Source: a virus
DNA length: 64,000 bases
Virus record (IMG/VR): IMGVR_UViG_3300029624_000178
Location: 1-64,000 of that record
Direction: 5' to 3' (one strand)
Positions 27,749-35,497 of this stretch are shown piece by piece. The position numbers and the translations under genes are program-made. The stretch's first letter is position 1. Every line of letters begins with the position of its first letter. The notes beneath the pieces were generated by a model. It searched no databases, was not told the origin of the DNA, and saw only the letters and a program-made list of their open reading frames with translations.

Positions 27749-29539
27749 TCAGGTCCCGAGCTTGGCGTTGATCTCGATCGGCCAATACGGGTTCCGCTGC
27801 GAGTACCCGGCGTTGTAGTAGACGTTGTAGGTGACGTACCAGGTGCCCGCGCCCCAGCAGGTGCCGTCCTCGCCGAGCCAGAGATTGGCGCCGTTGTCCG
27901 AGCCGATGGAGTGTGCATCGACGTCAATCACTTTTGCGGCCAGGCCCGGGGCGTTCCACCAGTAGGAGTTCGCCGCGAACAGGGCGCCGCCGCGCTGGCC
28001 GTTGTTGTTGCGCCCACCGCAGAGCGTGGTGCCGTCATCGAAGAGCGCGATCAGATGCGTGGTCGAGCCGCGGCCAGCCAGGTCGATCTTGAGAAGTTCC
28101 CCCGGCGTCACCCCGGTGCCCAGGCTAAGGTCGATCTCGTAGATGCCAGCATAAGTCCCGCTCGACCGGTTTTCTGAGAGCTGGCCATAGCCTGAGTAGC
28201 CACCGCCGAAGAGGCGGTTGTCCTCCGTCTTCACGTAGCTGTTGCCGCCACCCCAGACATCGACCGCCTTGCCGTAAATCTCCCCCGCCCCGAAACCCTG
28301 AATGGACTGGGCCGCGTTGGTGCCGGCGGTCGATCCCGTCATCGCCTGGCCGTAGCCGGAATAGCCGGCAAAGGCGACCGTGCCGTCGGCGAACAGGAAC
28401 AGCGCCTGGCCGTTGTCGCCGCCGCCCCAGGCGGCGATCTTGATGCAGACCTTGTCGGCGAAGAGCTGGTTGCCGCTGGTCCCGTGCTGGACCGGCCGGA
28501 AGTAAGTCTGGTTGTTCCCGTAAGTGTCGCCCATGGGATAGTTGTTGTTCCGTCCAGCCGCCCAGACCTTGCCGGCGGTGTCGATGTACCAGACCGTGCC
28601 GTACTGATCGCAGGCTGCGGTCACGTAGACCGCATCGGTGACCGGGACGATGCCGCTTTCGCCGCGCGACGGCAGGCCCTCGCGGTAGCACTGGTGCGGC
28701 GAGTAGGTCTCTGCCGAATTGGTCGTGGCGTTGTTCGTGGCCGTCTGGCCGTAGCCGTTGTAGCCCCAGCCCCAGAGACGGCCGTCATCGGTCAACGCGT
28801 AATAGGTGATGGCTGTGCTGTCCTGACCGTTCACCGTGCCCGCGATCTGCACGATCTTGCGGCTGTCCTTGTAGAGGCGCTGGTCCTCCTGGATGCCCTC
28901 GTAGGACTGCCAGCCGACCATGCGCCAGCCCGCGCGGTTCGAGGCGCCGCCGTCGCCGCACTGGCCGTGGCCGCTGTAACCGCAGGCAAACACGACGCCG
29001 CACTTGAGCAGCACCACCTTGGTGTAACCGGGAATGGCGCCGACGATATGGAAGGCGTCGCGCTCCTTCCAGTGATGACGGGTGTCGTAGCCGCCGTAGT
29101 TGGCCGGCCAGGCGTCGGGGTCCATGCGCCCCTCGGCGATCGCCCGAATCCAGTTCGACTGCACCCCGAGCCACTGGATCGGATCGGACAGGATATAGCC
29201 GTGCTGGACGTAGCCGCCGCCGTTGCCATCGCCGAGATCGGAGTACTGGTTCGAGCCAGACATCGCGACCTTGGTGTGATCGACGATCAGGAGGCCCTGG
29301 CTGTTCTCCTGCGTGATCGAGGGGCCCGTCACCACCTCGTGGCTGAACGGCTTGGGCGTGCGGGTGTTGTGGCGGAACACATGCGGGTTGAGCGTTCGCT
29401 GGCCCTTGCTGTTGGCAATGGGACCGGGGAACAGCGTCACGCGATGGTGCCCACCGCCGCGACGCCCGATGGTGATCGACCCGCCAGCGGCCTTGCGTTC
29501 GGCGCGTGGCAGGTCCGCCGTGATCGTGGAATTGCTCAT
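27749..29539 (-). CDS. RCC1-like beta-propeller tail/receptor-binding protein
   Basis: The 596-residue protein starts at ATG 29539, overlapping the previous stop (TGATG). The N-terminal 175 residues are a phage-like region. From about residue 180 onward, repeats of the RCC1 type recur: VFACGYSGHGQCG, LWGWGYNGYGQT, VWAAGRNNNYPMG, VAFAGYSGYGQA, LFGGGYSGYGQL, LCGGRNNNGQRG and CWGAGTW. Seven such units would close a seven-bladed propeller. RCC1 repeats are best known in eukaryotic proteins; here the fold probably recognises a cell-surface receptor. Position between tail genes supports a tail-fibre role. Binding target unknown. Confidence 0.8.
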   Translation of the reverse strand: MSNSTITADLPRAERKAAGGSITIGRRGGGHHRVTLFPGPIANSKGQRTLNPHVFRHNTRTPKPFSHEVVTGPSITQENSQGLLIVDHTKVAMSGSNQYSDLGDGNGGGYVQHGYILSDPIQWLGVQSNWIRAIAEGRMDPDAWPANYGGYDTRHHWKERDAFHIVGAIPGYTKVVLLKCGVVFACGYSGHGQCGDGGASNRAGWRMVGWQSYEGIQEDQRLYKDSRKIVQIAGTVNGQDSTAITYYALTDDGRLWGWGYNGYGQTATNNATTNSAETYSPHQCYREGLPSRGESGIVPVTDAVYVTAACDQYGTVWYIDTAGKVWAAGRNNNYPMGDTYGNNQTYFRPVQHGTSGNQLFADKVCIKIAAWGGGDNGQALFLFADGTVAFAGYSGYGQAMTGSTAGTNAAQSIQGFGAGEIYGKAVDVWGGGNSYVKTEDNRLFGGGYSGYGQLSENRSSGTYAGIYEIDLSLGTGVTPGELLKIDLAGRGSTTHLIALFDDGTTLCGGRNNNGQRGGALFAANSYWWNAPGLAAKVIDVDAHSIGSDNGANLWLGEDGTCWGAGTWYVTYNVYYNAGYSQRNPYWPIEINAKLGT

Positions 29540-30213
29540 CAGTAGTCGCCGCCGAAGAAGCCGATATGGACGTTGCCGGTTGTGACCGCATTGGCGTTGG
29601 CCGGGATCCGCGCCGCGAGCGGGTCTTTCAGCAGCAGCCAGCGGTCGCCCGTGAGGTCCAGCCACGGCATCTGCTCGAGGTCGAGCCCGGCGACCGAAGG
29701 GGAGCCGTCGAACCCGGCGCGGGCCGGAACCTCCATCGACCAGAGGGGACGCCAGCGGTAGGCATCGATGGTGACGCCGAGCTGCTGCGTGATGGCGTTG
29801 CCGGGCGTGTTCTCCAGATTAAGCACGTCGAAAATGCCGGATCCGGGCGTCTGCTCCCCGATCCCGGTCATGCGGTAATCGCCCCGATTGACCGTGGCGA
29901 CGTTCCAGAGCGTCAGCACTTGCAGGTTCTCAGTGATCGCCCAGGACTGATCGTCGGTCCGGGTCACGGTGAAAGGGTCCGTGGCCGGCGTGGCGCCGGG
30001 GACGATGTTCACCTCGACGCCGGAGAACACGATGTCGAAGGTGCCGAACTCCACGGGAGCCGCGGCATCGCCGTCGTTGCCGAGCACGATCGCATGCAGC
30101 CGCGTGCCATTGGCGCCGGGCGTGAAGACGGTCTGGGCCGCGTTGCCCAAATCGGCGCGCAGAACCGCGCCATCCTGGCGGTAGGCCGCCACGAAGATCG
30201 GCTGATTGGCCAT
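29539..30213 (-). CDS. Conserved phage structural protein, tail region
   Basis: The 224-residue protein is beta-rich with a Gly/Asn/Asp-laden sequence. Recognisable segments include LHAIVLGNDGDAA near the N terminus and WDLTGDRW-like Trp-rich motifs (MPWLDLTGDRWLLLKD) near the end. It has no family that I can name. It is translationally coupled to the RCC1-like protein, so the two may form one receptor-binding assembly. Confidence 0.65.
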   Translation of the reverse strand: MANQPIFVAAYRQDGAVLRADLGNAAQTVFTPGANGTRLHAIVLGNDGDAAAPVEFGTFDIVFSGVEVNIVPGATPATDPFTVTRTDDQSWAITENLQVLTLWNVATVNRGDYRMTGIGEQTPGSGIFDVLNLENTPGNAITQQLGVTIDAYRWRPLWSMEVPARAGFDGSPSVAGLDLEQMPWLDLTGDRWLLLKDPLAARIPANANAVTTGNVHIGFFGGDY

Positions 30214-31210: not shown

Positions 31211-33769
31211 TCAACGGTAGCTGCCAGCCGCCGGGTTGAGGCCGTAGCGGCGCTCCAACGTCGGCGCGATGCCCTCGCCGCGCCCCACGTTCCGGGCAAT
31301 CCGGCCCTCCACCTGCTCGATCATGATGTCGAGGGTGAGGTTGCCGTTGCCGTCCCGGCGCCAATCGGCGGTGGCCTCCGTGCCCGGCGCCGCGTTGCGG
31401 ACGTTCACCGCCACATTGACCACCGGGCGCTCGCCGGAGGCCGGCGCCATCGCCCGCATCTGTTCGGGCGTGAACACGCCCTCGCCGCGGCGGGCGATGA
31501 TGGGAACCTCGCCGGCGACGATCCCGCCACCATGGAACCGCGGCGCCCGATCGAAGGCGGCAGCCGGGATCATGCGGCGCGGCAGCGCATCGGCGCCTAT
31601 GACGCCGCCGCCATGGGCGACCATGACGGGGCCCGGTGCGGGGAAGTCCCCGACCGGCCCCGTGGTCCCGCTTCCCCCGAACAAGCCGCCGAAGATGGCG
31701 CCGCCGAGATCGGCGAAGATGCTCTCGAACAGCCCACCGAGGGGCTTGATCACCGCCATGCGCCAGGCGGCGCGCAGCGCTTCCTCGGCGATGCTGTTGA
31801 ACAGATCGGCCGCCGACAGCTTGCCCGTCATGGCCCACTCGACGAAGGCGTCCTCACTCGCCTGCAACGCCCGGGTCGTCGCCTGCTCGAACTGGCGGGC
31901 GGCATCGCCCGCCGCGTCGAGATAGTCGCGGATGGCCCGCTGGACCCCGGCCGACCAATCGCGGCTGGCGCGCAGCATCCGGTCGTAGGCCTCTTCGCTC
32001 GCAGCTGTGAACGTCTCCTGGCTGATGGCGCCCGCCTCGAGCAGCGCATTGAGCTCGCGGATCTCGTCGGCATAGGCCTGCTGGGCCGTCCGCAGGCTGC
32101 GGGTCAGCGATTCGCCTTTCTCCCGGAGCTTGCGCGCCTCCTCCTCGGCCTTGTTGCGGGCCTCGATCGCCTGGCGTTGGTCGAAGAGCGCCCCCGCCAG
32201 CTCGCGCACCCGCGCGCGCTCCGCCGCCGTCGCCTCCGCCGACAGACGCCGCAATGCCTGGGAGACGAAGCGTTCCCGGTCCGTCATCGTTAGCTCGTCG
32301 CGTTCCGCGCGGAGGCCCTCGATCACCCGCTGGTTGGCCTGACGCTGGCGCGCCGCAGCTTCCTCTTCGCGACGGGCGAGCTCGGCGAGACGCGCATCCC
32401 GCAGTGCGGCGGCGTCCAGCATGATCTGCTCGACGCGGTCGAGGTTCGATCCGTCGGGCGCGATCAGGGTCTGCATCTCGGCGACGAGCCGCTCATACTC
32501 GGCGCGGATCCGCTCGGCGCCCTCGTGACGGGCTTCGAACAGCTGGCGCTGCAGATCCTGCTCGATCCGGGCGATGCGCCGCGCGCGCTCCTCCGCCGAT
32601 GCGACATCGCCCTCGATGGCATCCGGCGTCGAGCGCGTATCGGTATCGACACGGTCGGGCGTGTTGCGCTCCGCCTCGGCCTGCATCCAGGCGAGCTTCG
32701 CCGCCCACTGGCGGTACTGCGCGACCCGCTCCTGAAGACGGCGTTCGAGCGCTTGCCGGCGGCCCCAGGCGATCGGGTCGTCGAGGAAGGAGACATCGCC
32801 GATCTCGTTCAGCTCGCGGGCGATCTCCTGCAGTTCCCGGCGCCGTTCCTCGACGATGCGCCGGGTCGAGCGCAGGCTCAGCCCCTCGAAGTTGAAGTCC
32901 CCCTGCAGCACCAGCTTCAGCTGCTCGTAAGCGACGCCGGCATCGGCCGCGAGTTCCGCAAGGCCCGAGGACAGGTCGGCGATCAGCGGCGAGAGGTCGA
33001 GGACGGCGCGCGTCAGATTGGCCGAGATCACCTTGCCCAGCGTGTCCAGTTCGTCTTTGGCTTTCTCGGCGTTGCGGATCAGGTCTTCTTCGAGAACGAT
33101 GCCGAGATCGCGGGCGCGCTGGCGCATATCCGCGAGCCCGTCGGCGCCGCGGTTCAGCATGTTGACCATGGCGACGCCCTCGCTGTCGAACAGCTTGAAG
33201 GCGAGGCGCAGCCGCTCGGCCGGATCCTCGACCGCGCGCAAGGCTTCAGCGACGTCGTCGAGAAGGTCTTCCGAGCGCCGGATATGGCCGTTCTGGTCGC
33301 GCAGGGCGATGCCCATGCTGGCGAGCGCTTCCTTCGCCTCGCCCGTGCCGCGCGCCGCCTCCCCGACCCGGCGCGTGAAGCGCTGCAGCGCCATGTCGAG
33401 AGTGTTCTGTTCGACACCCGCCAGGCTCGCCGCGTAGCGCAACTCCTGCAGAGCCTCGACGCCGATGCCGAGCTTGTCGGCGGTCTTGCCGATGGCGTCG
33501 GCCGCTTCCAGCGAGCGGTTGATCAGCGCCGACAGGCCGCCGACCGTGGCAATCCCGGCGAGCGCGCCGCCCAGCAGTCGGATGCCGCTGCGCAGGGACG
33601 AGGCGCGTTCGGCGAGCGATCCAAGGCCGCGCGAGGCGACGCCCGAGGCGCGGTCGATCTTTTTGAGGGACCGGTCGCCGCTCTCGCCGACCCCGCGCAG
33701 CTCGGCCTGGACCCGGCCACCGCCGTCGACGCTCAGGCGGACCGCATATTGATGTGTCGTCTTGGCCAT
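31211..33769 (-). CDS. Phage tail tape measure protein
   Basis: The 852-residue protein starts with a short beta region, then a membrane-active hydrophobic stretch (LLGGALAGIATVGGLSALI, about residues 66-84), then very long charged helices with Arg/Glu-rich coiled coils (about 290-600), and a lambda gpH-like C terminus (FVEWAMTGKLSAADLFNSI, then a Gly-rich end). It sets tail length and forms the DNA channel into the cell. At 852 residues, and by the roughly 1.5 A per residue rule, the tail would be about 130 nm. Confidence 0.92.
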   Translation of the reverse strand: MAKTTHQYAVRLSVDGGGRVQAELRGVGESGDRSLKKIDRASGVASRGLGSLAERASSLRSGIRLLGGALAGIATVGGLSALINRSLEAADAIGKTADKLGIGVEALQELRYAASLAGVEQNTLDMALQRFTRRVGEAARGTGEAKEALASMGIALRDQNGHIRRSEDLLDDVAEALRAVEDPAERLRLAFKLFDSEGVAMVNMLNRGADGLADMRQRARDLGIVLEEDLIRNAEKAKDELDTLGKVISANLTRAVLDLSPLIADLSSGLAELAADAGVAYEQLKLVLQGDFNFEGLSLRSTRRIVEERRRELQEIARELNEIGDVSFLDDPIAWGRRQALERRLQERVAQYRQWAAKLAWMQAEAERNTPDRVDTDTRSTPDAIEGDVASAEERARRIARIEQDLQRQLFEARHEGAERIRAEYERLVAEMQTLIAPDGSNLDRVEQIMLDAAALRDARLAELARREEEAAARQRQANQRVIEGLRAERDELTMTDRERFVSQALRRLSAEATAAERARVRELAGALFDQRQAIEARNKAEEEARKLREKGESLTRSLRTAQQAYADEIRELNALLEAGAISQETFTAASEEAYDRMLRASRDWSAGVQRAIRDYLDAAGDAARQFEQATTRALQASEDAFVEWAMTGKLSAADLFNSIAEEALRAAWRMAVIKPLGGLFESIFADLGGAIFGGLFGGSGTTGPVGDFPAPGPVMVAHGGGVIGADALPRRMIPAAAFDRAPRFHGGGIVAGEVPIIARRGEGVFTPEQMRAMAPASGERPVVNVAVNVRNAAPGTEATADWRRDGNGNLTLDIMIEQVEGRIARNVGRGEGIAPTLERRYGLNPAAGSYR

Positions 33770-33772
33770 GGG

Positions 33773-34123
33773 TCAGTCCGGTCGCTGGCTCCGCAGGGCT
33801 TCGGTCATCCCGAGCTCGGCGGCTGGCAGAAGCTCCGAGAGAACGGTCGCGTCGAACCCGCGGGTACGCGCGATGTCGAGCAGGGCCGGCTGGTCGAAGC
33901 CGACGATTTGACCGGTCGGCCCGAGGCGCAGCTGGCTGCCGTGTTCGCTCACCAGCACAAAGAGAGCGTGCTCGTCTTCCGACCGGGGGGCGTGCTCCCG
34001 GTAGGGGCAGCGCGCGGCCGCGCTTATGCCTTCGCCTTCGGCGCAGGGACTTCCTTCCTGGCGGCACCCTTCGCAGTAGTCGGGCCCTCCGCCGAAGTGC
34101 CAGCGGCAGAGAGCCCGAATCCG
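33773..34123 (-). CDS. Frameshift extension of the tail assembly chaperone (gpT-like)
   Basis: In the -1 frame relative to the chaperone, an uninterrupted reading runs from the slippery site at 34123-34129 to the stop at 33773, giving 116 extra residues and a 253-residue fusion. The extension has a Cys/His cluster, with ALCRWHFGGGPDYCEGCR and further Cys, suggestive of a zinc site, then a helical end. A GTG at 33958 could start a 61-residue protein, but coding character begins well upstream of it, inside the chaperone gene. This is the gpG/gpGT arrangement of siphophages, where both forms guide the tape measure protein. Confidence 0.75.
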   Translation of the reverse strand, partial: RIRALCRWHFGGGPDYCEGCRQEGSPCAEGEGISAAARCPYREHAPRSEDEHALFVLVSEHGSQLRLGPTGQIVGFDQPALLDIARTRGFDATVLSELLPAAELGMTEALRSQRPD

Positions 34124-34533
34124 TTTTTTGCTGCGGTGAGCAGCACCTGCCGGAGGGTGAACTCCTGGAAGAACCGCTCGCCCACAGGGTAGAGATCCAT
34201 CAGGGCGGATATGTTCTCCGGGGTCGGATCCGCCGGCCCGTCGTCACCCTCGACACCGTCCCAGCCCACGATGTGCCGGCGCGCAAGCTCCTTGATCAGC
34301 AGCGCCTGATAGAGCCCGTCGCGTGCCGCCTCGTCGTCGAGGGCGGGAAGGTCCACCACGGACAAGCCGTTCTCCCGGCGCTCGCGAAGATCGCTCTCGA
34401 TCCGCTCCAGCAGGCGGCGCGCAGCCGACTGTGCCGCGGCCATCGCCGTCGTGGTGAGCGGCGTGACCGTCGCGCGGACCCCGTAGGGAAGCTCGATCTC
34501 GAACGGCTCGCGCGATGCCTTGAGAGAAATCAT
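34024..34533 (-). CDS. Tail assembly chaperone, short form (gpG-like)
   Basis: The 169-residue protein lies between tail tube and tape measure genes, the fixed place of tail assembly chaperones. It has a beta-rich start (FEIELPYGVRATVTPLT), a helical middle, and an Ala/Lys-rich low-complexity end after residue 137 that looks disposable. Codons 136-137 form the A AAA AAC slippery site. Its tail likely matters less than the -1 frame extension. Confidence 0.85.
   Translation of the reverse strand: MISLKASREPFEIELPYGVRATVTPLTTTAMAAAQSAARRLLERIESDLRERRENGLSVVDLPALDDEAARDGLYQALLIKELARRHIVGWDGVEGDDGPADPTPENISALMDLYPVGERFFQEFTLRQVLLTAAKNGFGLSAAGTSAEGPTTAKGAARKEVPAPKAKA
34123..34129 (-). promoter_or_regulatory. 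Programmed -1 frameshift slippery heptamer A AAA AAC
   Basis: On the coding strand the sequence GCA AAA AAC contains the canonical X XXY YYZ heptamer in the zero frame. After slipping, codon reading continues CGG ATT CGG and stays open for 116 codons. The position near the end of the chaperone gene is exactly as in lambda gpG/gpGT. A stimulatory structure downstream was not determined. Confidence 0.8.
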
Positions 34534-34543
34534 GCCTGCCTCC

Positions 34544-35497
34544 TTACAGGTAATCGCTGCCGTCGAGATCGTTCACCAGGGTCACCGTCAGCATCCGCCC
34601 GGCGATCTCGTTGCGCGCCCCCTGAAAATCGAAGCTGGCCTGGACGCCGCCCGGCCCCTCGACAGCGAGCTTCGGTTTGGGCAGATAGACCTCGTGCGCC
34701 TCGAACGCGGCCGACAGGCCGGCGCCGAGGCTGTAGGAGAAATTGAGGTCGACCGGCGTTCCGTTCGTTGCCAGATCGATCAGCGTCGTGTCGGCGAAAC
34801 GCAGGTCGATCCGCCCGGTCAATGCCGCGACGGTGGGATCGGCGCCGTCGATCTTGCCGTCGGAGCGGATGGTCTCGATCTTTTCCAGATTGTTCGAATA
34901 GGTGAGCGAGCCCGCCGTCAGGTTGGCGATCGCCGAGCCGGCTCGGCTGATCGCGCCCTGGAACTGGCTGACGCGCTGGAAGGCGAGCGTCGACGGTGTC
35001 CCGCCCTGGCTCGAGCCGAAGCGGCTTTCGCCCTGCGCGACGCACTGGATTGTGGCCGCCGCGGCGCCCGAACGCTGGAAGTCGAGGGCCATCGAGCCCA
35101 CGACCAGCCCTGCGTGCTGGAAATACGCCGGCACCTGGGGCATGCCGACCTCGACGGTGTAGCTCGGCAGGCTCTCCTGGCCGGAGGCGAACACGTGATC
35201 GTAGGTGCCGTCGCCGTTGTCGGCGGTGACTGGATCGCCCAGGAGGCCGGTCAGCCAGATGCCGAGATAGCGCATATCGACGGGCACGACGATATCGCCC
35301 TCGTCCATGATGGCGTCGCGCAGCGGCGCCAGCGGATCGCGGCCCTGTCCCAGGACGGGATCGTCGATCAGGCCCTGTTCGGAGCCGAGCGAGCAGCGGT
35401 TGAAGGGCATGCGATGGAACCCGCTCGCCGCCGCCTGGCCATAGGTGCTCTCGCGGGCGACGAGCAGCGTCGCGCTCGAACCATAGGCTCGCGCCAT
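34544..35497 (-). CDS. Major tail tube protein
   Basis: The 317-residue protein has a Gly/Ser/Thr-rich beta composition with GSSATLLVARESTYGQ at the N terminus and YTVEVGMPQVPAYFQHAGL in the middle, typical of phage tail tube proteins of the long-tailed group. It stacks as hexamer rings around the tape measure. The neighbours (tail terminator upstream, chaperone downstream) give the standard order. Confidence 0.85.
   Translation of the reverse strand: MARAYGSSATLLVARESTYGQAAASGFHRMPFNRCSLGSEQGLIDDPVLGQGRDPLAPLRDAIMDEGDIVVPVDMRYLGIWLTGLLGDPVTADNGDGTYDHVFASGQESLPSYTVEVGMPQVPAYFQHAGLVVGSMALDFQRSGAAAATIQCVAQGESRFGSSQGGTPSTLAFQRVSQFQGAISRAGSAIANLTAGSLTYSNNLEKIETIRSDGKIDGADPTVAALTGRIDLRFADTTLIDLATNGTPVDLNFSYSLGAGLSAAFEAHEVYLPKPKLAVEGPGGVQASFDFQGARNEIAGRMLTVTLVNDLDGSDYL

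Follow-up and report, generated by a model that had tools for sequence, protein, structure and literature searches.

Evidence for a programmed −1 ribosomal frameshift with a conserved downstream hairpin in a phage tail assembly chaperone gene

A locus flanked by the genes for the tail tube and the tape measure protein in IMG/VR virus record IMGVR_UViG_3300029624_000178 raises the question of whether a single start codon there serves two proteins. The DNA analysed (the window) comprises 64,000 nucleotides (nt) of this 67.6-kb record, and every feature described below lies on the minus strand. The 0 frame is an open reading frame (ORF) with an ATG start (34024..34533) that encodes a gpG-like tail assembly chaperone of 169 residues, identified by phrog_313, 'Tail assembly chaperone' (E 2.5e-11); neither Pfam nor NCBIfam gave a match to it. 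An initial annotation of the sequence had proposed that ribosomes slip at an A AAA AAC heptamer, in frame at codons 136-137, into a −1 frame open for 116 codons with a Cys-rich segment. The heptamer was located at 34129-34123, on a strand which that annotation had left unstated. Codons 135-137 of the 0 frame read GCA AAA AAC, so A AAA AAC has the X XXY YYZ phasing that a −1 slip requires. Translation past the heptamer gives KRIRALCRWHFGGGPDYCEGCRQEGSPC... and continues for 116 codons beyond the heptamer Lys to a stop at 33773, so that 137+116 residues make up the 253-residue fusion as proposed. The resulting gpT-like extension (33773..34126), 117 residues with the heptamer Lys included, replaces the last 32 Ala/Pro/Lys-rich residues of the chaperone and, in agreement with the predicted Cys-rich segment, has five Cys within its first 40 residues. 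A programmed −1 ribosomal frameshift of the lambda G/GT type, by which both chaperone and fusion are made from one start, is almost certainly the answer to the question.

The first evidence for this comes from the slippery site itself. AAAAAAC occurs only once on the minus strand of the window, the GC content of which is 64%. Relatives were found in IMG/VR (47 with the extension as query and 30 with the chaperone), in GTDB genomes (23, several of them from Magnetospirillum, Paramagnetospirillum, Thalassospira and other alphaproteobacteria) and in Rhodobacter phages (11), and a profile search gave at least 583 confirmed relatives, 80 of which were kept. When distinct 60-nt sites from IMG/VR, GTDB genomes and a Rhodobacter phage were read from the extension start, all 105 had a slippery heptamer at the homologous position: AAAAAAC in 76, GGGAAAC in 28 and GGGAAAA in one. 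The position is invariant across relatives while the slippery type alternates. One locus (L078) had no in-frame heptamer when anchored by tblastn, although reading from the extension reveals the site on the same contig (L136). Three loci with the extension are present in Magnetospirillum sp. SS-4 (L093, L100 and L103) and two in Paramagnetospirillum caucaseum (L090 and L091), suggesting several related prophages per genome.

From the junction onward, it is only the −1 protein that is conserved. Across 63 distinct homologous extensions, Lys and Arg (the K-R junction), Ala, Trp, Phe, Tyr and four Cys (C-x2-C followed by another two) are invariant in all 63. The distance from the heptamer to the 0-frame stop is 3 nt at 28 of the 105 sites and 63-153 nt at the others, so the −1 protein does not arise as a by-product of 0-frame coding. 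Beyond that stop, the changes between the window and its closest relatives at −1 codon positions 1, 2 and 3 number 8, 3 and 12 (L002), 9, 2 and 17 (L003) and 11, 3 and 12 (L004), a sparing of position 2 consistent with that of coding sequence. In two loci (L054 and L057) the −1 frame continues to 172-175 codons, possibly through an indel close to where the extension ends, whereas their relatives end near 120. The −1 frame is thus open and constrained at the protein level, and it could be supposed that the extension is translated independently, as a gene that starts within the chaperone ORF: either the 61-residue ORF with a GTG start that conventional gene calling would report (33773..33958) or something longer. 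That ORF is present, and some ATG, GTG or TTG is found in the −1 frame, within 45 codons upstream or 30 downstream, at 19 of 73 sites; however, 54 of the 73 have no such start in that span. In the window the −1 frame is free of stops from 34243 to 33773 and its first start codon is the GTG at 33958, with none between the upstream stop at 34243 and that position and so none upstream of the Cys segment. A protein initiated at 33958 would lack both the Cys4 segment, which is invariant, and the K-R junction, which is conserved exactly from the heptamer. An internal start was rejected on these start-codon counts, and a separate gene is considered very improbable.

Downstream of the heptamer there is a stem-loop (34080..34118) that the initial annotation did not mention. 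RNA folding pairs 34118-34104 with 34094-34080 to give a predicted stem of 15 base pairs (bp) after a 4-nt spacer, and comparable stems of 11-15 bp are found in nearly all relatives with a spacer of 4-6 nt, mostly 5-6 nt to the core stem. The mean minimum free energy of the 53 nt past the heptamer is −27.7 kcal/mol, compared with −13.5 and −14.6 kcal/mol in two other segments of the same gene. In a recoding test, synonymous codons were drawn afresh according to local usage while the −1 amino-acid sequence was kept unchanged; at 64 of 74 distinct sites the natural sequence ranked within the most stable 5%, and the mean z was −2.8. Among 33 diverse sequences, standard pairs occupy 85% of stem cells and 25 cells are changed on both sides, against 11.1 in shuffles; the stem covariation score is 0.242, against 0.137 in shuffles (0 of 500 reach it) and at most 0.100 in slid controls. 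At pair 19-41, numbered as offsets from the heptamer start, pairing is kept in 93 of 95 as U-A, G-C, U-G or G-U, with a Leu/Arg change on the 5' side accompanying a silent GGA/GGC change on the 3' side, and parsimony gives four changes on the 5' side and seven on the 3' side, with several independent switches. Shuffle tests are inflated by relatedness, and a conserved Gly-Gly-Gly-Pro is encoded by the 3' arm; for these reasons weight is given to the recoding test, to the slid controls and to the repeated switches. On these comparisons the stem, which starts within the few nt (about 4-9) past the heptamer that are expected of a stimulatory hairpin, appears to have been selected beyond coding constraint, and it is likely that the hairpin stimulates the frameshift. 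An intrinsic terminator was ruled out as the reason for the hairpin, as no T-run follows it. A search of part of the literature returned no direct report of downstream hairpins in tail chaperone frameshifts; they may nevertheless have been described for other tail chaperones, and the hairpin can be called new only tentatively.

Both signals bear on the possibility that a fusion message arises from slippage of the polymerase on the A-run. The window does contain a run of six A, although six is short for transcriptional slippage, many relatives carry GGGAAAC at the same position with no long homopolymer, and a conserved downstream hairpin with a spacer of 4-6 nt suits a ribosomal signal. This explanation was rejected because relatives use GGGAAAC, and hardly any credence is given to it. 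That the heptamer is a chance occurrence, or that a sequencing error has split one ORF, could be entertained for a single contig, in which heptamers can occur by chance, but is refuted by conservation, since 105 distinct sites, drawn from numerous assemblies, from isolate genomes and from an annotated phage, show the same arrangement; the probability of this reading is negligible.

A −1 ribosomal frameshift of the lambda G/GT type best accounts for a slippery phase that never varies, a −1 protein that is conserved and lacks a start of its own, and the hairpin, and is held with very high confidence; the invariant site, a −1 protein conserved from the junction and the annotations of Rhodobacter phages together bear out the initial annotation on this point. 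The slippage event itself is one that we infer, from the site, the open and conserved −1 frame, the predicted hairpin with its conservation and the gene order established here. Several observations weigh against it. Inspection by eye revealed no Shine-Dalgarno-like stimulator at a consistent position upstream. A_AAC is generally held to be less slippery than A_AAG in E. coli, a rule that may not be that of the host of this phage. Finally, the Foldseek matches of the extension are weak: several predicted viral folds among those closest to it belong to proteins of other phages with the name tape measure chaperone or tail assembly chaperone (for example F20, with a probability of 0.98 and a template modelling score of about 0.5), and these are taken as supportive only because the best E-value is 0.024.

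Four elements of the following account are suppositions: how efficiently ribosomes slip, what the hairpin does, whether metal is bound, and what the products do in assembly. Most ribosomes would translate the 169-residue chaperone through to its stop, while a minority would be held up at A AAA AAC by the hairpin 4 nt beyond it and re-pair one base back, giving the 253-residue fusion that ends in the Cys4 and DUF7697 extension. If the lambda model applies here, the tape measure protein would be coated by the common N-terminal part, and tail-tube subunits would be recruited by the rarer extension. It is also conceivable, though doubtful, that in this large, mainly alphaproteobacterial phage group a strong dnaX-like hairpin sets a ratio different from that of lambda and that the fusion bears a Cys4 adaptor that binds metal and has no known counterpart in the extensions of other tail chaperones.

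The extension has two parts. Residues 18-40 (34007..34075) form the Cys4 segment, C-x2-C-x6-C-x11-C, the four Cys of which are invariant in a further count of 39 of 39 extensions; it is a possible metal site, with zinc as the candidate. The C-terminal half is a DUF7697 domain (33782..33919; PF24752, E 7e-10, 39.1 bits against a curated cut-off of 27), on which no paper was found in the literature searched. PF24752 (52 residues) and phrog_11212 (55 residues) span only the terminal ~50 residues, and the Cys4 half (33959-34126) lies outside both, as expected if these models were built on truncated gene calls; its absence from them is probably a database truncation due to unannotated frameshifting. 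This fits the expectation of the initial annotation that ordinary gene calling would retain just the 61-residue piece. An AlphaFold2 model of the extension, made with 39 family members, is mostly helical with a mean predicted local distance difference test (pLDDT) score of 85.6 and a predicted template modelling score of 0.77, and is least confident at residues 11-40, around the Cys4 segment, where block-mean pLDDT is 59-73. No relative of the extension was found in the PDB by sequence, nor by fold (no E below 2).

Directly upstream of the chaperone is the tail tube protein gene (34544..35497; PF18906, E 4e-52), and the tape measure protein gene (31211..33769; PF09718, E 8e-23, and several tape-measure PHROGs) has its ATG 3 nt past the stop of the −1 extension. 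The order is therefore tail tube, chaperone, tape measure, with the two overlapping chaperone frames between the outer genes. Downstream of the tail genes, an ORF at 27749-29665 contains repeated GYSGYGQ / WGWGYNGYGQ-like motifs that look RCC1-type by eye only.

These results strongly support a class-wide recoding event in a large, poorly annotated phage family and expose PF24752 and phrog_11212 as models limited to the truncated downstream piece, from which the Cys4 half is absent. Moreover, the slippery site and the hairpin form a compact, testable signal that could serve for automatic annotation of the fusion.

In common with lambda G/GT, the textbook case, the window has a tail assembly chaperone gene with a probable frameshift, flanked by those for the tail tube and the tape measure protein. 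It differs in that family searches gave no sequence-level match to lambda, in the conserved hairpin and the Cys4 segment, and in the heptamer, which is A_AAA_AAC here and this or G_GGA_AAC in relatives, whereas that of lambda is G_GGA_AAG. The lambda products divide the binding between them, the short form taking the tape measure protein and the T part of the fusion the major tail protein, as set out in a review of the G/GT chaperones (PMC5009743) that cites Levin 1993, Xu 2004 and Xu 2013 and 2014. The signal of E. coli dnaX (PMC3711429) shares an A-rich slippery heptamer followed by a hairpin, although it belongs to another gene, has AAG in place of AAC and includes a Shine-Dalgarno-like upstream element that is not evident here. 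An HK97-like chaperone cluster, likened to the present one by description only, also has a −1 frameshift in a phage tail assembly chaperone, measured at 6-7% by the GeneTack authors (PMC3711429). A further comparison is with the RcC-cluster phages of Rhodobacter capsulatus, which have a chaperone homologue of ~30% identity and an extension of 32-33%: the records of 11 Rhodobacter phages show overlapping tail assembly chaperones at the site, and the two records examined, RcKemmy and RcKai, contain an explicit two-piece join. Their sequence has diverged, and RcKemmy has G_GGA_AAC as its slippery site and a stem of 10 bp in a register shifted by one base. Given that the paper on the Rhodobacter phages (PMC8601537) describes a programmed frameshift as usual in such chaperone genes and that the RcC records annotate the join, the frameshift proposed here is of an already known kind, to which the conserved hairpin and the Cys4 segment make a modest addition.
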